Of a stretch of DNA of 64,000 bases, positions 10,257 through 19,283 are shown in pieces. The notes below the pieces were generated by a model. The model saw nothing but the letters and a program-made list of their open reading frames with translations. It made no database searches and was not told the origin of the DNA. A program made the position numbers and the translations under genes. The stretch spans positions 62,001-126,000 of the forward strand of contig NZ_OCMT01000005.1 in NCBI RefSeq assembly GCF_900215335.1. The letters are read 5' to 3'. Origin of the DNA: Pedobacter xixiisoli (GTDB lineage Bacteria > Bacteroidota > Bacteroidia > Sphingobacteriales > Sphingobacteriaceae). Each line of letters opens with the position of its first letter. Within the stretch, counting starts at the first letter, position 1.

Positions 10257-10347
10257 TATTTGCCCTGCTTTAATGAACGGCAATTGTTACAAAATTTTGC
10301 TTTGGTTAAAACTATTTCGGTGCGTGTTTTGTGGTTATATATTAAAT

Positions 10348-12825
10348 ATGGCTATCAAATCAACAGCTCAACCTCAGAAACATTTTTTTAGGGCCACCAA
10401 AGGTAAAGTGGTGCTCGGATTTTTATTCGCAGGTTTGGCGCTGTTTTTGGCTTGGGGTGTAAGTAAGTTTGTTTTCGGAGAGATTTTAGGAACGGTGGAG
10501 AAGATATCAGCTCCCAACGATAAGTTAAGGTTGGTAAATAAGCTCTCGCACCAAATTGCTTCGTTAGACCAATTGCAAAGGGAGCCTAAAAATAATGTCA
10601 GTTTTTTCGCTGCTACCCAAAAATTACGAAGAACCTTAGATACTTTAAATACGCTTTACGTTACCGATGAAGAGCAAACTAAACGGATAAAAACGTTAAA
10701 AGATTTGCTTAAGGATAGAGACAAACAATTTCTGCTTTACCTAGAGGTGAAGGAAAATTTGGTGAATACCCAATCGTTTTCTGAAGAGGTAGAAAAGCTA
10801 AATAACCTGTTTGCGCAACGTACGAGGGAAGCAGACAGCGCTGTTTTTACTACCGAAACGTCTACTTCTACCACAACGGTAGCACCAGAAGAGGAACAGA
10901 AATCTCGTGGTTTTTTAAGCCGATTGTTCGGTAAGAAAAAAGCAGAAGTTTATAAAATCATTAACGAAGAGTATAAGGTCAAAAAAGATACGCTTAATCC
11001 GCAGGTTGAAGATAGTGTGATGCGAAATGTGGAAGCTTCGCTGAAAACGATTGAAACAGAACAACGCCAAAAAAGTAATCGCTTTTTAAAGAAGGAAGCT
11101 GAATTGGCAAACTCTAGTAGCGCATTGACCAAACAAATGCTTAATGTGCTGCGTGAGGTGGAAGCGGAAGCTTTAATGCAAATTGACCTCAACGGCGAGC
11201 AGGCTAAGAGCATGGTGAGCGAGGGCGTTTATCAGATTAAAATTATCATTATTGCTTTCTTTGTGATTACGATGGTTTTGGGTTCGCTTATTCTGGCGGA
11301 TATCACTAGGAACAACAAATATCGTTTAGCCTTGGAAAAGGCGAAGGAAGAGGCAGAGTATCATGGTAGGGCAAAACAGCGCTTTCTTTCTAACATGAGC
11401 CACGAAATCAGAACGCCTCTCCAAGCGATTTTGGGATATTCCGAATTTATCGCCAAACAGGAAAATCCCAATAAAAAGCACGTGGAAGCTATCCACCGCT
11501 CGTCGGTTCATCTATTGCAAATTGTAAATGAGGTGCTGGATTACAATAGGATTACTTCGGGCGAATTTAGCTTTAAGCAAGAGGATTTTGATTTGCAGAA
11601 GTTGTTGGAAGAGGTGCTGGATGCGGTTAAACCATTGGCGGAAAAGAAAGGCATCAGCCTGTTGGCTAATTTTAATTTAGCAGAGCAACATTGGGTAAAA
11701 GGCGATGCTTTTAGGCTGAAACAGGTGCTTTATAATTTATTGGGAAATGCAATTAAGTTTACGGTTAAAGGTTATGTAAAACTCATTGTTGATTGCAAGC
11801 AGCAAGAGCAAAACATGCACTGTTATTTTACAGTAGAAGATAGTGGGATTGGTTTTTCTGAGGAAGACCAAGAAAAGATTTTTAAGGAGTTTGAACAGGG
11901 TACTAATCCAGACCACCAATCGATGAACCAGAACGGCACTGGTTTAGGATTGGCTATTGTGAAAACTTTGATCGATGCGCAGGGCGGAAGAATTAATGCA
12001 AAAAGTAAGCTAGGGAAAGGGACTTCGTTTGTGGTTTATTTGCAGTATCAGCAAGCTGCAGCACCTATTGAGTCTAAACAGATAGAAAATAAGAAAGCGG
12101 TTACTAAAACTAAAGGTGTTTGGGTAATTGATGATGATCATCTGATTCTTAATTTGTGCGAGTTGATTTTTTCTGCCCATCAAATTCCGTATAAAACATT
12201 TAGCACAGCAGATGCCATTTTGAATGAGCCTATAGACGAAAATTTGGATTATGTTTTTGTAGATATGCGTTTGGAAGATGGGGTTACCGGCATCGAAATA
12301 CATCAACAACTTAAAAAGCGTTTACCTCATCATGTGAAATATTATGCTATTACGGCACAAGTTCTTCCCGATGAGCAACAAGCGGTATTGGACCAAGGCT
12401 TTGAAGGAGTGATTATCAAGCCTTTTAAGGCAGAAGATTTGTTGGCATTATTTGCGATTTCGCCAGTAGCCGAGGAAATCGATTTTGACGATAGCTCCTT
12501 GCGAAAAATGACCATGGGTGACCAAGAAATGATGGCGAAAATTTTGGCTAGTTTCATCCGTGACTGCGAGGAAGACGAAACGCTCTTAAAGCAGAGCATT
12601 TCTAATCAGAACCAGCCCGAAGCGAGGCTGGTAGTACACCGTTTGGCAGGAAGGATTGCACAAATTGGTGCTAAAGAGTTAGGCGCTGCTTTCAGGCAAT
12701 TGGAGCAGGAAGTTGCTGCGGTTGAGATATTGGATGAAGCTATTCGTGATCGAGTAAATGCATCATTAGCGCAATTGCAGTCGTTATTAAAAACTGTGGC
12801 GAATCGCATTCAGTCTTCGCTGTAA
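10348..12825 (+). CDS. hybrid sensor histidine kinase with REC and Hpt domains
   Basis: From the ATG at 10348 the protein has 825 residues: a membrane segment (about 21-41), a roughly 255-residue sensor region, a second membrane segment (297-319), a HisKA domain with phospho-acceptor His352 in SNMSHEIRTPLQ, an HATPase domain with DSGIGFS and GTGLGLAI motifs, a receiver domain with phospho-acceptor Asp639, and a C-terminal Hpt with His764 in VHRLAGR. It can therefore run a full His-Asp-His relay internally and needs a separate output regulator, which is not adjacent. The sensor region holds a Thr-rich low-complexity stretch and matches no family I recognise. The frame is open 25 codons further upstream, but that extension is Cys-rich and unlike a signal anchor, so the inner ATG is preferred. 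Confidence 0.93.
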   Translation: MAIKSTAQPQKHFFRATKGKVVLGFLFAGLALFLAWGVSKFVFGEILGTVEKISAPNDKLRLVNKLSHQIASLDQLQREPKNNVSFFAATQKLRRTLDTLNTLYVTDEEQTKRIKTLKDLLKDRDKQFLLYLEVKENLVNTQSFSEEVEKLNNLFAQRTREADSAVFTTETSTSTTTVAPEEEQKSRGFLSRLFGKKKAEVYKIINEEYKVKKDTLNPQVEDSVMRNVEASLKTIETEQRQKSNRFLKKEAELANSSSALTKQMLNVLREVEAEALMQIDLNGEQAKSMVSEGVYQIKIIIIAFFVITMVLGSLILADITRNNKYRLALEKAKEEAEYHGRAKQRFLSNMSHEIRTPLQAILGYSEFIAKQENPNKKHVEAIHRSSVHLLQIVNEVLDYNRITSGEFSFKQEDFDLQKLLEEVLDAVKPLAEKKGISLLANFNLAEQHWVKGDAFRLKQVLYNLLGNAIKFTVKGYVKLIVDCKQQEQNMHCYFTVEDSGIGFSEEDQEKIFKEFEQGTNPDHQSMNQNGTGLGLAIVKTLIDAQGGRINAKSKLGKGTSFVVYLQYQQAAAPIESKQIENKKAVTKTKGVWVIDDDHLILNLCELIFSAHQIPYKTFSTADAILNEPIDENLDYVFVDMRLEDGVTGIEIHQQLKKRLPHHVKYYAITAQVLPDEQQAVLDQGFEGVIIKPFKAEDLLALFAISPVAEEIDFDDSSLRKMTMGDQEMMAKILASFIRDCEEDETLLKQSISNQNQPEARLVVHRLAGRIAQIGAKELGAAFRQLEQEVAAVEILDEAIRDRVNASLAQLQSLLKTVANRIQSSL

Positions 12826-12953: not shown

Positions 12954-13742
12954 ATGCAAAATCCTACTGTAAAAGCTGTTTTTTTCGATATAGATGGTAC
13001 ATTGTTAAGTTTCAAAACACATAAAGTTGCACAGTCTACAGAGAAAGCTATCGCTGATTTACAAGCCAAAGGCATCAAAACTATTTTATCTACTGGTCGC
13101 TCGATTAACAGTATAGACCATATTAAATATTTAAATTTTGATGGCTACATTACTTTTAATGGTGGTTATTGTACTGCGAAAGATGGCGAGTTGCTTTTTA
13201 AGCAGTGCATTGACGCTGATGATATTCGGGGGATTTTAGCTTATGCAAAAGAAAATACGTTGAGTTTCTCTTTCATGTCTGAGAAGGAAATTGGTATTCA
13301 CGATGTAACTCCCGAAATTGCTGGAATGTATGCGCATGTTAACCTTCCAGTTCCACCACTTATTGATGTAGATCATGTGGATGTTTCTTCAATTTTGCAA
13401 ACCAATATTTTCTTAGGCCCTGAGCAGGAAAGTGCTTTTATGGCTGCGGTAATGCCAAATTCTACTGCTTCAAGATGGACACCTTTATTTGCAGATGTGA
13501 ATGCAAAAAATCAAAGTAAAAAAGTAGGGATTGATGTTTTCTGCAAACACTTTGGAATTGATTTATCAGAAACTATGGCTTTTGGCGATGGCGGGAATGA
13601 TATTGAAATGCTGAAGCACGTAAATGTTGGTGTAGCTATGGGAAATGCCAATCCGGAGGTAAAGGCGATAGCAGATTACGTTACCGACGACGTGGATAGC
13701 GATGGGATTTGGAATGCGCTAAAGCATTTTGGAGTGCTTTAA
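12954..13742 (+). CDS. Cof-type HAD-superfamily hydrolase
   Basis: This 262-residue phosphatase belongs to the Cof/HAD-IIB subfamily, which dephosphorylates sugar phosphates, FMN or similar small molecules. Motif I is FFDIDGTLL, with nucleophile Asp12 and acid-base Asp14. Motif II is the Thr of LSTGRS, and motif IV is FGDGGNDIEML, which holds the magnesium ligands. A C2-type cap domain fills the middle (about 85-180). The protein is complete and of normal length. It is a single gene between two hairpins. The substrate cannot be read from the sequence. Confidence 0.9.
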   Translation: MQNPTVKAVFFDIDGTLLSFKTHKVAQSTEKAIADLQAKGIKTILSTGRSINSIDHIKYLNFDGYITFNGGYCTAKDGELLFKQCIDADDIRGILAYAKENTLSFSFMSEKEIGIHDVTPEIAGMYAHVNLPVPPLIDVDHVDVSSILQTNIFLGPEQESAFMAAVMPNSTASRWTPLFADVNAKNQSKKVGIDVFCKHFGIDLSETMAFGDGGNDIEMLKHVNVGVAMGNANPEVKAIADYVTDDVDSDGIWNALKHFGVL

Positions 13743-13751
13743 AATATTAAA

Positions 13752-13767
13752 GCGAAAAATTTTTCGC
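13752..13767. terminator. palindrome between convergent genes, possible terminator
   Basis: GCGAAAAATTTTTCGC is a perfect 16-bp palindrome. It lies 9 bases after the HAD gene and 38 bases from the end of the convergent response-regulator gene. A second symmetric T6A6 tract follows at about 13781-13792. Confidence 0.4.
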
Positions 13768-13805
13768 CCATACTATGCTTTTTTAAAAAAGAGGAGTTCT
13801 AAAAA

Positions 13806-15125
13806 CTAATCAATTCCGTAGCGCTCCATTTTAGAATAAAGCGTTTTTCTGTCAATATTAAGTAGTTTCGCTGCCTTAGATTTGTTGTATTTCACTTTAA
13901 TCAGCGCTTCTGTAATCAATGTTTTTTCGTTGCTCTCGTTTACCGCTTTTAAATCCGATGGGTTGTCCAAAGGCACTTCGTTAGCAACGGCAATCTTCAT
14001 TTCGTCTGGTAAACTATCTGCGCTTGCAATGCTGCCCGCAGTAAGTAAAACCATTCGCTTAATCACATTTCTCAACTCTCTTAGGTTTCCTGGCCAATCG
14101 TATTTAAGCAATAGGCTACGAGTTTCCTTATCTAATTCCTTTACATTTCTGTTCAATTCTTCATTAGATAGTTTGATGAAAAGTTCAATAAAAAGCTCTA
14201 AATCTACGCCTCGTTCTCTTAGTGGTGGCAACTGAATTTTAAATTCGTTGATACGATGGTAAAGATCCTCACGGAACTCGCCGTTTTTCATGCTGTTGGC
14301 TAGGTCATCGTTAGTAGCTGTGATGATACGAACATCCACTGGAATTTGTTTGTTGCTACCTAGTGGTTGTATCACTCGCTCCTGTAGTGCTCTCAGTAAC
14401 TTAACTTGTACTTCGTAGCTTAAGTTGCCTATTTCATCTAGAAAAATAGTACCTCCATTGGCAGCTTCAAAAGAACCTTTTTTATCGTTTACCGCACCTG
14501 TAAAAGCACCTTTAATGTGTCCAAAAAGTTCGCTGGCAGCTAAATCTTTAGACAAAGCGCCACAATCTATCGCGATGAATGGCTTGCTTTTACGCTTGCT
14601 TTGTTGATGTAGCGTTCTTGCGGCAAATTCTTTTCCAGTACCACTTTCGCCTTGTATCACTACAGACATATCAGTTTCTGCCACTAAATCAATATGCTGG
14701 TATAACCTATTGGCTACTTCACTTTTGCCTCTAATAAAATTGTCTTCAGTAGTTTTAGGCGTTTCTTTTTTCTGTAGTGCGTTATTAATTACCATGAGCA
14801 ACTCATCTGGATTAATGGGTTTGGTAATATAATCGCTTGCACCTAAATGGATGGCTTTAACTGCCGTACGTACGTCGTTAAAAGAGGTCATGATAATAGC
14901 TGGAACAGCCAATCCTGTTTCACGACGATGGTTCAGTACATCTATTCCAGTGCCATCAGGTAATCGGTAATCTATTAATAGCAGTTGAAAATCTTCGTGA
15001 GCAATTAATTTGAGAGCTTTGGCAACATTACTAACGGTGGTTACTTCGAAATTGTTCTTTGTTAAAAATCCTTCAATAATCTGAGCGAAAGTGCTGTCGT
15101 CTTCAATAATTAAAACAGATGCCAT
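13806..15125 (-). CDS. NtrC-type sigma-54-dependent response regulator
   Basis: This 439-residue regulator has three domains. The receiver (1-115) has phospho-acceptor Asp52 in LIDYRLPDG. The AAA+ sigma-54 activator domain (about 130-370) has Walker A GESGTGKE (159-166), the RpoN-contacting loop GAFTGA (206-211) and Walker B TIFLDEIG (226-233). A Fis-type HTH lies at the C-terminus (403-439, SKAAKLLNIDRKTLYSKM). It activates transcription by RNA polymerase carrying RpoN. No partner kinase is adjacent; the nearest is the hybrid kinase about 1 kb away on the other strand. It lies directly beyond the terminator of the upstream PepSY-like gene, which makes those genes candidate targets, but this is inference. 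Confidence 0.95.
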   Translation of the reverse strand: MASVLIIEDDSTFAQIIEGFLTKNNFEVTTVSNVAKALKLIAHEDFQLLLIDYRLPDGTGIDVLNHRRETGLAVPAIIMTSFNDVRTAVKAIHLGASDYITKPINPDELLMVINNALQKKETPKTTEDNFIRGKSEVANRLYQHIDLVAETDMSVVIQGESGTGKEFAARTLHQQSKRKSKPFIAIDCGALSKDLAASELFGHIKGAFTGAVNDKKGSFEAANGGTIFLDEIGNLSYEVQVKLLRALQERVIQPLGSNKQIPVDVRIITATNDDLANSMKNGEFREDLYHRINEFKIQLPPLRERGVDLELFIELFIKLSNEELNRNVKELDKETRSLLLKYDWPGNLRELRNVIKRMVLLTAGSIASADSLPDEMKIAVANEVPLDNPSDLKAVNESNEKTLITEALIKVKYNKSKAAKLLNIDRKTLYSKMERYGID

Positions 15126-15138
15126 ATATACAAAAATA

Positions 15139-15170
15139 GGAAAAGCCAGTATTATATAACTGGCTTTTCC
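15139..15170 (-). terminator. terminator of PepSY-like gene copy 1
   Basis: A 12-bp perfect stem (15139-15150 and 15159-15170, core AAAAGCCAGT/ACTGGCTTTT) has an 8-nt AT loop. It separates the PepSY-like gene from the response-regulator gene on the same strand. The GCCAG core recurs in the terminator of copy 2. Confidence 0.8.
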
Positions 15171-15202
15171 CTTATTTAGTTTTAAGAAATGTAGATAATT
15201 GA

Positions 15203-15778
15203 TTATTCTACTGGTTTACCTTCAGCGTCGAATTTCAATGAAGCAGTTTCTTCTTCTTTCTTAACATCAACTTGGAAGTAAGATTTATCTCCATCTTTTA
15301 CACTGAATGCTGCAGTTGGCGTCCAAGCTTTGTATGGGTCAGTTGCCAACACTGTTTTAATTGCATCTGGTAATGCCGATACTTCAATTGGAGTTTTCAC
15401 TACGCTATCCTGTACCGAAACATTTTCTTCATTGCTGATTGAAACCTGTGCTTGAGTTGCAGTAACTCCTGCAAATTCTACTGGTTTACCTTCAGCATCG
15501 AATTTCAATGAAGCAGTTTCTTCTGCTTTTTTCACATCAACTTGGAAGTAGGCTTTGTCACCATCTTTTACGCTGAACGCCGCAGTTGGAGTCCAATCTT
15601 TATATGGATCAGTTGCCAATACAGTTTTGATTGCATCTGGTAATGCTGATACTTCGATCGGCGTTTTCACCACACTGTCTTGAACTGAAACGATTTCTAT
15701 TTTATTAACTGAAGCCTGAGCTTGTGTTGCTGTGAATCCTGCGAATGCTACGATAGCTGCTACAAATAACTTTTTCAT
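15203..15778 (-). CDS. secreted PepSY-like protein, two tandem 90-residue repeats (copy 1)
   Basis: The 191-residue protein has a signal peptide (1-20) and two copies of a 90-residue unit, residues 12-101 and 102-191. Each unit carries the same core: VSVQDSVVKTP, EVSALPDAIKTVL, WTPTAAFSVKDGDK, YFQVDVKK and SLKFDAEGKPVE. The pattern fits the PepSY-like periplasmic family (DUF2874) common in Bacteroidetes, whose members have no known enzymatic activity and are expected in the periplasm. The second unit begins EFAGVTATQAQ, which copies AFAGFTATQAQ of the signal peptide, so the repeat arose by in-frame duplication of a whole small gene. A near-identical paralogue lies 596 bases upstream. The function is unknown. 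Confidence 0.85.
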   Translation of the reverse strand: MKKLFVAAIVAFAGFTATQAQASVNKIEIVSVQDSVVKTPIEVSALPDAIKTVLATDPYKDWTPTAAFSVKDGDKAYFQVDVKKAEETASLKFDAEGKPVEFAGVTATQAQVSISNEENVSVQDSVVKTPIEVSALPDAIKTVLATDPYKAWTPTAAFSVKDGDKSYFQVDVKKEEETASLKFDAEGKPVE

Positions 15779-15805
15779 AATATCTATTTTTAAGTTTAAT
15801 ACATT

Positions 15806-15843
15806 TTGTGAATTATACTAGGTAATGCTTCACAATGGTGCCA
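15806..15843 (-). promoter_or_regulatory. conserved upstream dyad of PepSY-like gene copy 1
   Basis: TTGTGAA (15806-15812) and TTCACAA (15829-15835) form a perfect 7-bp dyad with a 16-bp spacer. On the gene strand it is preceded by TGGCACCA (15843-15836), which resembles the sigma-54 -24 element. The -12 GC is two bases too far away for a standard sigma-54 promoter. The block is identical upstream of copy 2, and similarity ends at its outer edge. It may be an operator, a promoter or a leader hairpin. Confidence 0.45.
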
Positions 15844-16134
15844 ATAGAGAATTTGCACTGTGCCAAAATATTAAGTTGTTGTAAATCAATTAATTGTTTT
15901 TATTTTTCTGAAAATGACTTTGTGGAGTTTCTCTACAACTTGTTTCCAAAGGCGGCAAATATCGTAGTAGCATTATTAATGAATTAACTTGATTTAGACC
16001 TTGTAAGAATTCAATCTGTAAAAGTATGGGGTAAGTGAGGATACCCATCTATAGCTAGATGAGTCTTGTCGGTTTTGGCGCATTTGATTTATTTGTCTGT
16101 ATTTGTAGATTTTGTCGTTTTGGGTAGGCTGGTT

Positions 16135-16168
16135 GACCGTCGGTCTGCCGTTCGTCTACCGTCGGTAC
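16135..16168. repeat. paired ACCGTCGGT motifs
   Basis: GACCGTCGGTC (16135-16145) and CTACCGTCGGTAC (16156-16168) each contain ACCGTCGGT, an odd-length near-palindrome (ACCG-T-CGGT). They are GC-rich islands in an AT-rich spacer, between the two PepSY-like genes. They could be a repeat scrap or a protein-binding pair. Confidence 0.35.
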
Positions 16169-16318
16169 TACGTCAGTGATTTGAAGTTGGAGATAATAGT
16201 GATTTGAGCGCAGAGTGATGACCGAACTACCAAAATTTTGATATCAACGTTCATTCATAGTTGCTAGAAAAGCTAATTGTTGTGGTCTATTTAGCAGTTC
16301 AAGAAAAATTGCACAAAA

Positions 16319-16346
16319 AATAAGCCAGCACAAAGGCTGGCTTATT
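16319..16346 (-). terminator. terminator of PepSY-like gene copy 2
   Basis: AATAAGCCAGC (16319-16329) pairs perfectly with GCTGGCTTATT (16336-16346) around a 6-nt loop. On the gene strand the stem is followed by a run of T (complement of the A run at 16315-16320). Confidence 0.85.
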
Positions 16347-16374
16347 CAAATTATGTAGTTTTAGAATGATCTAA

Positions 16375-16944
16375 TTATTCTACTGGTTTACCTTCAGCGT
16401 CGAATTTCAACGAAGCAGTTTCTTCTTCTTTCTTCACGTCAACTTGGAAGTAAGATTTATCTCCATCTTTTACGCTGAATGCTGCAGTTGGCGTCCAAGC
16501 TTTATATGGGTCAGTTGCCAATACCGTTTTAATTGCCTCTGGTAATGCCGATACTTCAATTGGAGTTTTCACTACGCTATCCTGTACTGAAACATTTTCT
16601 TCATTGCTGATCGAAACCTGTGCCGAAGCAACTCCTGCAAATTCTACTGGTTTACCTTCTGCATCGAATTTCAATGAAGCTGTTTCTTCTGCTTTTTTCA
16701 CATCCACTTGGAAGTAGGATTTGTCACCATCTTTTACGCTGAACGCCGCAGTTGGAGTCCAATCTTTATATGGATCAGTTGCCAATACAGTTTTGATTGC
16801 ATCTGGTAATGCTGATACTTCGATCGGCGTTTTCACCACACTGTCTTGAACTGAAACGATTTCTATTTTATTAACTGAAGCCTGAGCTTGTGTTGCTGTG
16901 AATCCTGCGAATGCTACGATAGCTGCTACAAATAACTTTTTCAT
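16375..16944 (-). CDS. secreted PepSY-like protein, two tandem repeats (copy 2)
   Basis: This 189-residue paralogue of the gene at 15203-15778 has the same signal peptide and two-unit layout. The first unit differs at one residue (Ser for Ala in DGDKxYFQ). The second unit starts EFAGVASAQVS, two residues shorter where copy 1 keeps the signal-peptide fossil TATQ. The residue Glu replaces Asp in SALPEAI of the second unit. The high identity, including about 65 bases of upstream DNA, points to recent gene duplication or ongoing gene conversion. It has its own terminator and upstream dyad, so it is probably transcribed separately but under the same control. It is expected in the periplasm and its function is unknown. 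Confidence 0.85.
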   Translation of the reverse strand: MKKLFVAAIVAFAGFTATQAQASVNKIEIVSVQDSVVKTPIEVSALPDAIKTVLATDPYKDWTPTAAFSVKDGDKSYFQVDVKKAEETASLKFDAEGKPVEFAGVASAQVSISNEENVSVQDSVVKTPIEVSALPEAIKTVLATDPYKAWTPTAAFSVKDGDKSYFQVDVKKEEETASLKFDAEGKPVE

Positions 16945-16971
16945 AATATCTATTTTTAAGTTTAATACATT

Positions 16972-17009
16972 TTGTGAATTATACTAGGTAATGCTTCACA
17001 ATGGTGCCA
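16972..17009 (-). promoter_or_regulatory. conserved upstream dyad of PepSY-like gene copy 2
   Basis: The same TTGTGAA-N16-TTCACAA dyad (16972-16978 and 16995-17001) and TGGTGCCA (17002-17009) occur as upstream of copy 1, at the same distance from the start codon. Sequence similarity between the copies stops right after this block, which suggests the block marks the duplication edge or is under selection. Confidence 0.45.
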
Positions 17010-17172
17010 GAGGCGAGTATCTAAACGTACCAAAATGTAAATAGCTGTAAAACAGGTGCTTGTTTGTTTTTGATAAAAAATGAGGTTGTGGAGAAAGTCT
17101 ACAACTTGTTGCGCAACGCTGCAAAAAAGTTTTAAATTTCGAATTTAATTAGTATTCCGCTTAATTTGTAAT

Positions 17173-18336
17173 ATGCAAAGATACCTATCAGCAGAATTGA
17201 TTTACCCAGTAACCAGTGCGCCAATTGCAAATGGTGTTTTAGAAGTTTCTATAACGGGTGAAATTATATCGATATTAACTGCAGAAGAAGCAGAACAAAG
17301 AAATTTAGAGGGAATAGAGCAATTTGAAGGTGTTCTGGTTCCTGGATTTGTGAACACACATTGCCATTTAGAACTGTCGCACATGTTTGGCAAAATACCC
17401 GAGCATACAGGCTTGCCAGCTTTCGTGAGAGAAATTGTTGCACAGCGAGCAGCGGCAGATGAAATTATACTTGCTGCTATGGATGTTGCCGACAAGCAGA
17501 TGCTCGAAAATGGAATTGTAGCCGTGGGCGATATTTCAAATCAGCTGCTTTCTAAAGAAGTAAAACAGCACAGTTCTTTATATTATCACACCTTTGTGGA
17601 AGTTTTTGGCTTTAACCGGCCATCGCAGCCTATTATAGATGAAGCTGTTAAAATAAGGGATAGCTATTGGCCACTTAAAGCCTCTATTGTACCACATGCA
17701 CCGTATTCGGTAAGTGACGAGTTGTTTCAGTATATAGAAAAAAATACCCGTCCGCACGATATTTTAAGTATTCATAATCAGGAAACTGCTGCAGAAAATG
17801 AGTTTTTTGAAAGAGGAACAGGAGATTTTGAAGCCATGTATCAACGTATGGGCGTACCTAAAAGCGAAGCCCACGGAACTGGAAAAAATGCCATTCATTA
17901 TCATTTACCTCAAATGCCAAGTAATAAAACATTGTTAGTGCATAATACTTTCACCAGCAAAGCTGATATAGATTTTGCTTCGGGGCAGCATAAGGATTTA
18001 TATTGGTGCTTGTGTCCAAACGCAAACGTTTATATAGAAAATAACCTGCCGGACGTAAATCTGTTTTTTGATTCTCGAGTTATCGTAACGTTAGGGACTG
18101 ATAGTTTAGCAAGCAATCATCAGTTATCTATTTTGGCAGAGATGCAAACCCTACAACAGAAAAAAAGAGTTCCTTTTGATGAATTGTTGAAATGGGCTAC
18201 GATTAACGGTGCGGCTTTTCTAGGTATCGATAGCCAATACGGAAGCTTTGAAGCAGGAAAAACACCAGGGGTAAATTTGATTGAGTTGGGAGAAGCAAAA
18301 ATCATTAAGTCTAAAAACGTAAAGCGATTGATTTAA
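17173..18336 (+). CDS. amidohydrolase-family deaminase-like enzyme
   Basis: This 387-residue metal-dependent hydrolase is of the chlorohydrolase/deaminase branch (SsnA, MtaD and aminofutalosine-deaminase relatives). Metal ligands are visible as the HxH in VNTHCHLELSH (His63, His65), a His in VPHAPYS, a His in SIHNQE and the Asp of LGTDSLASN. The N- and C-terminal strands form the small beta-sandwich typical of the family. The substrate cannot be set from sequence; deamination of a purine-like compound is the most likely class of reaction. Its stop overlaps the start of the next gene by one base (TAATG), so the two are co-translated and probably form an operon. Confidence 0.85.
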   Translation: MQRYLSAELIYPVTSAPIANGVLEVSITGEIISILTAEEAEQRNLEGIEQFEGVLVPGFVNTHCHLELSHMFGKIPEHTGLPAFVREIVAQRAAADEIILAAMDVADKQMLENGIVAVGDISNQLLSKEVKQHSSLYYHTFVEVFGFNRPSQPIIDEAVKIRDSYWPLKASIVPHAPYSVSDELFQYIEKNTRPHDILSIHNQETAAENEFFERGTGDFEAMYQRMGVPKSEAHGTGKNAIHYHLPQMPSNKTLLVHNTFTSKADIDFASGQHKDLYWCLCPNANVYIENNLPDVNLFFDSRVIVTLGTDSLASNHQLSILAEMQTLQQKKRVPFDELLKWATINGAAFLGIDSQYGSFEAGKTPGVNLIELGEAKIIKSKNVKRLI

Positions 18337-19283
18337 TGGCGAACGTAATCACTTCCCTATTTAATATCAAATATCCAATTATTCAAGCGGGCATGGTTTG
18401 GTGCAGTGGCTGGCGTTTAGCTGCCGCGGTTTCCAATGTAGGTGGTTTGGGCATCATTGGTGCAGGTTCAATGTATCCAGAGGTGTTACGTGAGCATATT
18501 CAAAAGTGTAAGCAAGCAACTGATCATCCTTTTGCCGTAAATGTACCATTGCTTTATCCAAACATTAAGGAAATCATGGATATTTTGGTAGAACAGGATG
18601 TTAAGATTGTATTTACTTCTGCCGGTAACCCCGCCACATGGACTAGCTTTTTGAAGGAAAAAGGAATGACGGTAGTTCACGTCATTGCCAATACTAAATT
18701 TGCTTTAAAAGCAGAACAGAGTGGGGTAGACGCTATTGTAGCCGAGGGTTTTGAAGCTGGCGGTCATAACGGTAGAGAGGAAACGACCACTTTATGTTTA
18801 ATTCCGATGATTAAACAAGCAGTGAAAATTCCTGTAATTGCTGCTGGTGGTATTGCAAGTGGAAAATCGATGTTAGCCGCTTTTTCCCTAGGTGCTGATG
18901 CAGTACAAATAGGTTCTGCATTTGCTGTAGCCGAAGAATCGTCCGCACATCCAAATTTTAAAGAACGTATTATTTCATCCGCCGAAGGCGATACCAAGCT
19001 GAGGATGAAAAAACTAGTGCCTGTGCGCTTATTGAAAAATGAATTTGCCGATGCCGTTGCGCAAGCCGAAGCAAACGGAGCTAGCACCACAGAACTCGCC
19101 ACTTTATTAGGAAGAGCTAGAGCCAAATTGGGAATGTTTGAAGGCGATATAGCAGAAGGAGAGTTGGAAATCGGTCAAGTATCAGCTATGCTGAATGAGA
19201 TTAAACCTGCTGCCATTATTTTGCATGAAATATGGGAAGAGTTTTTGTCAGAAAAAGATAAGTTGAGTGCATTAAAGTTTTAA
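18336..19283 (+). CDS. nitronate monooxygenase / FabK-like flavoprotein
   Basis: This 315-residue FMN-dependent TIM-barrel enzyme belongs to the 2-nitropropane dioxygenase family. The N-terminal PIIQAGMVW and SNVGGLGIIGAGSM segments, EAGGHNGR in the middle and GADAVQIGSAF near residue 190 are the family's FMN-binding elements. The His in GGHNG is the usual catalytic base. Such proteins either oxidise nitronates or act as enoyl reductases (FabK), and the sequence alone does not separate these. The gene overlaps the amidohydrolase gene by one base and is the last gene of that pair; an inverted repeat follows it. Confidence 0.85.
   Translation: MANVITSLFNIKYPIIQAGMVWCSGWRLAAAVSNVGGLGIIGAGSMYPEVLREHIQKCKQATDHPFAVNVPLLYPNIKEIMDILVEQDVKIVFTSAGNPATWTSFLKEKGMTVVHVIANTKFALKAEQSGVDAIVAEGFEAGGHNGREETTTLCLIPMIKQAVKIPVIAAGGIASGKSMLAAFSLGADAVQIGSAFAVAEESSAHPNFKERIISSAEGDTKLRMKKLVPVRLLKNEFADAVAQAEANGASTTELATLLGRARAKLGMFEGDIAEGELEIGQVSAMLNEIKPAAIILHEIWEEFLSEKDKLSALKF

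Follow-up and report, generated by a model that had tools for sequence, protein, structure and literature searches.

A signal-peptide remnant in the linker of a two-unit secreted protein and the history of its gene pair in Pedobacter xixiisoli

How did a secreted protein built from two closely similar halves come to be encoded twice, side by side, in Pedobacter xixiisoli? The two genes lie in a 64,000-nucleotide stretch of DNA, here called the window; its genome is denoted W, the gene in the upstream position W_1 (16375-16944) and the gene in the downstream position W_2 (15203-15778). Both open reading frames are present on the minus strand, and the initial annotation gave their span, 15203-16944, exactly. 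It had also seen two repeats per protein, and these are real at the DNA level: each gene encodes a signal peptide and two 72-residue units, with a linker of 16-18 residues between them (Table 1). The coding sequences of W_1 and W_2 are identical at 551 of 567 nucleotides (97%). The two N-terminal units differ at 4 of 216 nucleotides and the two C-terminal units at 9 of 216, while N and C units differ at 26-30 of 216, which corresponds to 86-88% identity in the window; within the two-unit genes compared, the range is 79-92%. A 300-nt direct-repeat family has four copies in the window, with 76-100% identity to the reference copy. The spacer between the two genes is 596 bp long, as compared to 428-487 bp in helvus, ASV17 and chitinilyticus (for A84, the printed 425 bp includes some coding sequence), and contains short repeats of the CCGACGGT kind at 16120-16180.

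Table 1. Positions of the two genes, their parts and the neighbouring elements in the window.
Feature	Position	Strand	Basis or remark
W_2, two-unit secreted protein gene, downstream position	15203..15778	-	ORF, 191 aa; two-unit matches in relatives
W_1, two-unit secreted protein gene, upstream position	16375..16944	-	ORF, 189 aa
W_2 signal peptide, residues 1-22	15713..15778	-	cleavage site placed by eye
W_2 N unit, VSVQDS...GKPVE, 72 residues	15476..15691	-	
W_2 linker, fossil signal peptide, FAGVTATQAQVSISNEEN	15422..15475	-	31/39 nt vs own signal peptide
W_2 C unit, 72 residues	15206..15421	-	
W_1 N unit	16642..16857	-	
W_1 linker, fossil signal peptide, FAGVASAQVSISNEEN, 6 nt shorter	16594..16641	-	23/39 nt vs own signal peptide
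W_1 C unit	16378..16593	-	
Terminator-like hairpin after W_2, downstream-position type	15140..15169	-	sequence; UTR comparison
Terminator-like hairpin after W_1, upstream-position type	16320..16346	-	similar in helvus, A84, ASV17/chitinilyticus upstream copies
Promoter-proximal element of W_2, TGGCACCATTGTGAAGC...TAGTAT	15815..15843	-	exact pattern
Same promoter-proximal element, upstream of W_1	16981..17009	-	exact pattern
Palindrome TTGTRGAGNNNCTCYACAA, 19 bp, candidate operator	15920..15938	.	0 mismatches
Palindrome TTGTRGAGNNNCTCYACAA, 19 bp, candidate operator	17086..17104	.	1 mismatch
NtrC-type response regulator, conserved neighbour	13806..15125	-	Response_reg, Sigma54_activat, HTH_8; 13/16 loci
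Hybrid histidine kinase	10273..12825	+	HisKA, HATPase_c, receiver, Hpt

Neither protein reaches the PF11396 cut-off or has a match to this Pfam model at an E-value of up to 1, and no Pfam PepSY model is matched. Two of 18 aligned family members match PF11396 (best E-value 0.001), and a profile of 18 sequences matches 3u1w_A with an E-value of 1.6e-5. The model of a single unit, with pLDDT values of 90 or more at 58 of 101 residues and a pTM of 0.58, contains a helix and four antiparallel strands (E36-41, H48-54, E63-72, E75-84, E87-93), as in a BLIP-like repeat. The first 12 rows of the Foldseek search (eight entries: 3u1w, 4k61, 4ipb, 4hbr, 4fr9, 3db7, 3due and 3elg) are DUF2874, BLIP-like or similarly annotated periplasmic chains, with a best E-value of 7.8e-4 and TM scores by query of 0.48-0.59. 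From the profile and fold searches, the unit is predicted to have the PepSY_like/DUF2874 (PF11396) fold, so that the term "PepSY-like" in the initial annotation finds its support there, although not in Pfam. For the two-unit model, the best match is again 3u1w (E-value 3.0e-8), at an rmsd of 9 and with a pTM of 0.37, and the packing of the two halves is therefore not fixed by the model. Other candidates were set aside. The weak Pfam matches, three for W_2, the first protein, and seven for the second (for example Neisseria_TspB, DUF4412 and DUF4426), are all under their cut-offs, the NCBIfam match to the Shiga toxin B subunit has a score of 16 bits, where the cut-off is 201, and covers residues 1-31 only, which is the signal-peptide region, and the AB5 B subunits are weak Foldseek matches with E-values above 2.

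As a protein, it appears to be an unremarkable member of a family already described. The PF11396 domain is described as present in one to four copies in different sequences, as tandem repeats, and the inhibitory or partner-binding activity of the family is presented as a proposal (PMC2954215). Like the window proteins, BVU2987 (PDB 3due) and BDI_1975 (3u1w) are secreted and share the helix plus four-strand repeat. However, the two repeats of BVU2987 are reported to be 22% identical over 54 residues and to form one eight-stranded sheet, with a loop similar in length to the roughly 10-residue loop of BLIP (PMC2954215), whereas the window units are 86-88% identical at the DNA level and joined by a tether that is predicted to be disordered.

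In W_2, the sequence GKPV is followed by EFAGVTATQAQ, which the initial annotation had taken for a copy of the end of the signal peptide, and in W_1 it is followed by EFAGVASAQ, so that the loss of two residues, likewise suggested there, is a derived deletion located in 16375-16944. The signal peptide of W_2 reads GTA GCA TTC GCA GGA TTC ACA GCA ACA CAA GCT CAG in codon register with the linker, which reads GTA GAA TTT GCA GGA GTT ACT GCA ACT CAA GCA CAG. Over the 39-nt register VAFAGFTATQAQA, the linker of W_2 matches its own signal peptide at 31 of 39 nucleotides. No codon shuffle out of 10,000 gave so high a value, and elsewhere in the gene, from nucleotide 90 on and in any frame, the best window matches at 18 of 39. 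Over the same register, W_1 matches at 23 of 39 (codon shuffle, p 0.0009). The reading of the linker as a signal-peptide remnant would have been weakened by relatives with two-domain proteins and no signal-like linker, but a signal-like linker is present in all nine two-unit genes examined, with 22-31 matches of 39 (codon-shuffle p 0.0001-0.0084). Small residues might resemble each other by chance or convergence, and five of the nine linkers indeed match at only 22-23 of 39 (p 0.0009-0.0084); against this, two reach 30-31, every linker exceeds every other window tested in its own gene (best 18-20 of 39), and the codon register and the joint are identical in all nine. Chance or convergence is practically excluded.

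The linker might instead be a selected feature, such as a protease site at which the two units are cut apart, and small residues and AxA-like triplets do recur in several linkers, as judged by eye. However, the linker is the fastest-changing part of the protein: over seven genomes its mean amino acid identity is 44%, as compared to 89% for the N unit and 92% for the signal peptide plus leader, and to 92% for the C unit over six genomes (A84, where it is interrupted, excluded). Its length is 16 or 18 residues in the two-unit genes, and no hydrophobic core is left, the maximal 12-residue hydropathy being 0.28-1.23 as compared to 2.66 for the signal peptide of W_2. A protease site is without support from linker identity, hydropathy and length, and we consider it very improbable. 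Residues 102-124 have pLDDT values under 50 in the two-unit model of W_2, and the linker reads as a fast-evolving, nearly neutral tether that is predicted to be disordered.

The letters at the joint also suggest how the fusion may have occurred. The joint has the same position in all nine two-unit genes, where GAA or GAT precedes TTT or CTT, and the genes typically end in GTA GAA TAA, while the signal region contains GTA GCA TTC. Recombination would have linked the final GTA GAA of one copy, which directly precedes the stop codon, to a point midway in the signal-peptide coding region, and a crossover within the shared GTAG-AT letters would yield GTA GAA TTT, in frame and with the stop codon lost. 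The in-frame fusion proposed in the initial annotation is supported in this respect. The cut would have left nothing of the charged start and little of the hydrophobic core, and the remnant should for this reason not act as a second signal. A single joining event probably took place in the ancestor of the seven sampled genomes. Titles and the first parts of abstracts in the open-licence literature gave no earlier description of a signal-peptide remnant as a linker between fused duplicates. The bivalent spider toxin Hc1a, an unrelated protein, offers a parallel, as it is described as a two-domain protein from a one-domain ancestor with a linker from the ancestor's end (PMC13172734).

Relatives with a single unit were sought, as the initial annotation had proposed, and sister lineages proved to have them at the syntenic position. 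Matches to the gene were identified in at least 136 of 145 genomes in the genus and at least 96 of 301 in the family, with up to at least six in one genome over several contigs (G099). Two-unit matches in the genus, among the matches listed, where a two-unit gene is expected to rank high, come from G000, G036, G118, G124, G139 and G144, which is six of 145 with W included; the match in G124 stops at residue 180. In G012 and G129, the match covers residues 1-175/176 with stops inside, which represents neighbouring single units. A scan of the collection gave 16 loci, of which L032-L036 contain two-unit genes and L034 adds a seventh two-unit genome. The record title of L034 is Flavobacteriaceae bacterium PS02338, but its neighbouring genes are 86-94% identical to those of the window at the protein level, and the name looks wrong. 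An amidohydrolase and the NtrC-type regulator flank the gene in 13 of the 16 loci (L032-L044), while none of the conserved neighbours was seen in L045-L047 in this comparison of neighbourhoods. In many loci of the genus, single-unit genes stand in tandem.

To place these genes, we inferred a species tree from five neighbouring genes in 15 genomes chosen from the loci at hand, out of 145 in the genus, with one of the five genes missing in ureilyticus and another in four outgroups. The seven two-unit genomes group together with an ultrafast bootstrap support of 83, and the six without Nubsella with a support of 100. The grouping with Nubsella has a support of only 83, from five neighbouring genes of a locus with recombination between species. 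The single-unit lineages ASV17, chitinilyticus and nanyangensis, and then ASV28, are placed outside the two-unit group, and the single-unit form is therefore ancestral and one fusion suffices. The one-domain ancestral gene of the initial annotation is thus upheld: it is shown or strongly supported that the ancestor in the Pedobacter lineage encoded a secreted protein, about 101 residues long, with a single unit of the PepSY_like/DUF2874 fold, between the amidohydrolase and the NtrC-type regulator. In A84 (G124), the upstream gene has two units and contains an assembly gap, while the downstream gene has one unit; this array is either an intermediate or a contraction. The array of chitinilyticus (L039) has a 100-N gap, and because of such gaps inside both arrays the copy counts in A84 and chitinilyticus are unsafe.

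The phylogeny of the units tells of a less simple history. The tree contained 27 units, without the unit of UBA1951, missed by the search pattern, and the upstream C unit of A84, which is interrupted by an N run; ASV17_2S was left out of both topology tests and A84_2S out of the second. A topology with one clade of N units and one of C units was rejected (p-AU 0.00012), so that the units must have been homogenised, while one clade of all units from two-unit genes was not rejected (p-AU 0.087 and 0.056). The clustering predicted in the initial annotation consequently holds in the window, where N is closest to N and C to C, but not beyond this genome. In PS02338, the N and C units encode the same residues except the last and differ at 18 of 216 nucleotides, the N units of ureilyticus and G118 are placed among the C units with weak support (36-67), and the N unit of A84 differs from its single-unit neighbour at 10 of 216 nucleotides. 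The two genes of one genome show the same pattern, since coding paralogues are 97% identical in W and 99% in helvus, while the orthologues of W and helvus are 88-89% identical. Far upstream of the upstream position the trend is the opposite, with 83-90% identity between orthologues and 68-78% between paralogues. The 97% identity of the coding sequences in W thus reflects homogenisation; in ASV17, with 89% identity between its two genes, this is not evident. That the units within genes, and the genes within genomes, were made alike after the fusion by either gene conversion or unequal crossing-over is strongly supported. As in the long-lasting concerted evolution described for prokaryotic paralogues (PMC6053082), paralogues of the same genome are closer than orthologues, with the difference from that description that the process here also acts between the two halves of one gene.

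The age of the gene pair was judged from the flanks. Over the 75 nucleotides after the stop codon, the 3' UTRs of the upstream genes of W, helvus and A84 match each other with 48-76 bits, and match the downstream UTRs of those genomes with 17-35 bits. For W, comparison of the upstream-position UTR gives 76 bits for A84, 49 for helvus and 46 for the upstream copies of ASV17 and chitinilyticus, as compared to 20 bits with the downstream UTR of W itself and 17-26 with the rest. A blastn comparison of the spacers agrees. The pair is thus older than the divergence of W, helvus and A84, whose common ancestor already had both gene positions. Judged in the same way, the pair may even predate the fusion. 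The two 3' UTRs of ASV17 count against a pair that came first, as they match each other with 73 bits, above the 46 bits between W and ASV17. The two 3' UTRs of W are 86% identical over 49 of 71 gappy columns, and neither the region from -170 to -76 nor the far upstream of the downstream position separates orthologues from paralogues. A promoter tree of 12 of the 16 upstream regions (the search pattern missed the helvus upstream copy, Nubsella, nanyangensis and ASV28, and for chitinilyticus the upstream region used was the part that precedes the N run) groups ASV17_2 with chitinilyticus_2 (98) and ASV17_1 with the chitinilyticus upstream copy (99), and gives no date for the pair. Unlike its promoter, the 3' UTR of the chitinilyticus downstream gene matches W_2 with 123 bits and ASV17_2 with 53, which makes recombination between species likely; such recombination at the locus limits every tree presented here.

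The initial annotation had read a clear two-step history from the locus, in which a one-domain gene was duplicated and fused and the fused gene was then duplicated as a whole. The observation behind it is confirmed and the history is real, but less simple. That the domain was doubled in place within one gene, with a later whole-gene duplication and nothing else, agrees with the pairing of N with N (4/216) and C with C (9/216) in the window and with the single clade of two-unit units that was not rejected. As a complete account it is refuted by the topology test, in which independent N and C lineages were rejected, and overall we hold it to be unlikely: the upstream-position 3' UTR common to W, helvus and A84 means that the pair is not a window-specific duplication, and A84 combines a two-unit and a single-unit gene, albeit with an assembly gap. 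The proposed order, with the whole-gene duplication after the fusion, is not borne out by the same shared UTR, by its weaker match to the single-unit upstream gene of ASV17 and chitinilyticus, or by the array of A84.

The one-unit ancestor and the in-frame join stand, but a duplicated and fused gene is not separable from a fusion of two neighbouring paralogues that had already diverged, the ancestral type upstream and the derived type downstream, by deletion of the spacer. Such a fusion has close to an even chance in our estimate. The gene of Nubsella leans towards it, with an N unit of the ancestral motif TPIKVEELPEA and a C unit of the derived TPIELTALPEA, and in ASV17 two single-unit genes follow each other in this order (KLEELPEA, then ELSALPDA); the tandem single-unit genes in many loci of the genus also speak for it. 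However, the downstream gene of ASV17 is a mosaic, of the derived type in the first 80 nucleotides or so and of the ancestral type after, so that its derived piece may come from a two-unit relative, and doubling in place was not rejected by the topology test.

Taken as a whole, the best explanation, which we regard as probable, is a single fusion through a signal-peptide scar followed by homogenisation, with a gene pair at least as old as the fusion and a product tied to the adjacent kinase/NtrC system. The second gene would then have become two-unit by conversion or unequal exchange. A more detailed version, which we put forward tentatively and would not yet favour over its negation, is that the positions are older than the fusion, that two diverged neighbouring paralogues fused via the scar, that the fused form spread to the other position and between the halves by gene conversion, and that A84 is an intermediate. 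If true, a new protein architecture spread and was kept by concerted evolution in a small tandem array. By the time a domain doubling is inferred, its traces have usually long vanished, while the joint is still readable here, as the end of one copy, a microhomology and a signal-peptide remnant, with living one-unit relatives at the same place. The locus also illustrates that the 97% identity of neighbouring genes can mislead, since by its flanks the pair is older than one would conclude from the coding sequence. It is a tidy evolutionary record of modest novelty, in a family already known.

The neighbourhood offers a hint about function. Of the 13 loci L032-L044, 12 contain the hybrid kinase gene, and the sequence of L035 stops short of its expected place. 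The genome of W encodes sigma-54 (PF04552 match), and the neighbouring regulator is an activator that carries the interaction domain (PF00158). The placement of PepSY proteins next to two-component genes is described as widespread, and DbfQ of the DbfQRS system in Vibrio cholerae, a small secreted PepSY-type protein beside a histidine kinase and a response regulator, as acting through its kinase (PMC12714742). On these grounds, the most likely role for the product of W_1 and W_2 is that it modulates the adjacent two-component system or is one of its outputs, although we give this slightly less than even odds. The arrangement in the window resembles DbfQRS in that a small secreted gene of PepSY type, here PF11396-like, lies within a few genes of a kinase and a regulator, but it differs in that the proteins lack a Pfam PepSY match, the regulator is of the NtrC type and the kinase gene is on the opposite strand. 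The doubling would raise the dose or valency of the secreted protein. No paper on Pedobacter with PepSY was found in the open-licence literature.

The TGGCACCATTGTGAAGC...TAGTAT element at the two promoters of W_1 and W_2 gives the only exact matches to this pattern in the genome; the pattern with TTATG has no match in the genome, the window having TTGTG. A TGGCAY element is located near -65 upstream of many relatives but is absent from, for example, L013, L018, L019 and L021. It does not fit the classic sigma-54 -24/-12 spacing, and the consensus TGGCA-N6/7-TTGC was not present in the 300 nucleotides upstream of the genes scanned (L008 on, and the upstream regions of W by eye). Rfam gave no match in 13500-18500. 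The palindrome is placed about 160 nucleotides upstream of each gene, and these are its only sites in the genome at 0-1 mismatches; at two mismatches there are eight more, as compared to one in all for the reversed control. In the window, two matches at up to three mismatches were reached by 13 of 100 shuffles, which is not striking alone. Among the relatives, it has 0-4 mismatches before the first gene of an array (seven where an N run intervenes) and 5-7 before later members of operon-like arrays, while ASV17_2, chitinilyticus_2 and A84_2, which have their own promoter regions, have it at 1-2 mismatches. The palindrome is a candidate site for the adjacent NtrC-type regulator. L025 and L027 contain four single-unit genes in a row at steps of about 390 bp, with TGGCAY and the palindrome before the first gene only. 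In a relative from Bacteroides mediterraneensis with 35-40% identity (L047:3886-4189), a TTTGGCATCATAG element is located at a similar upstream distance.
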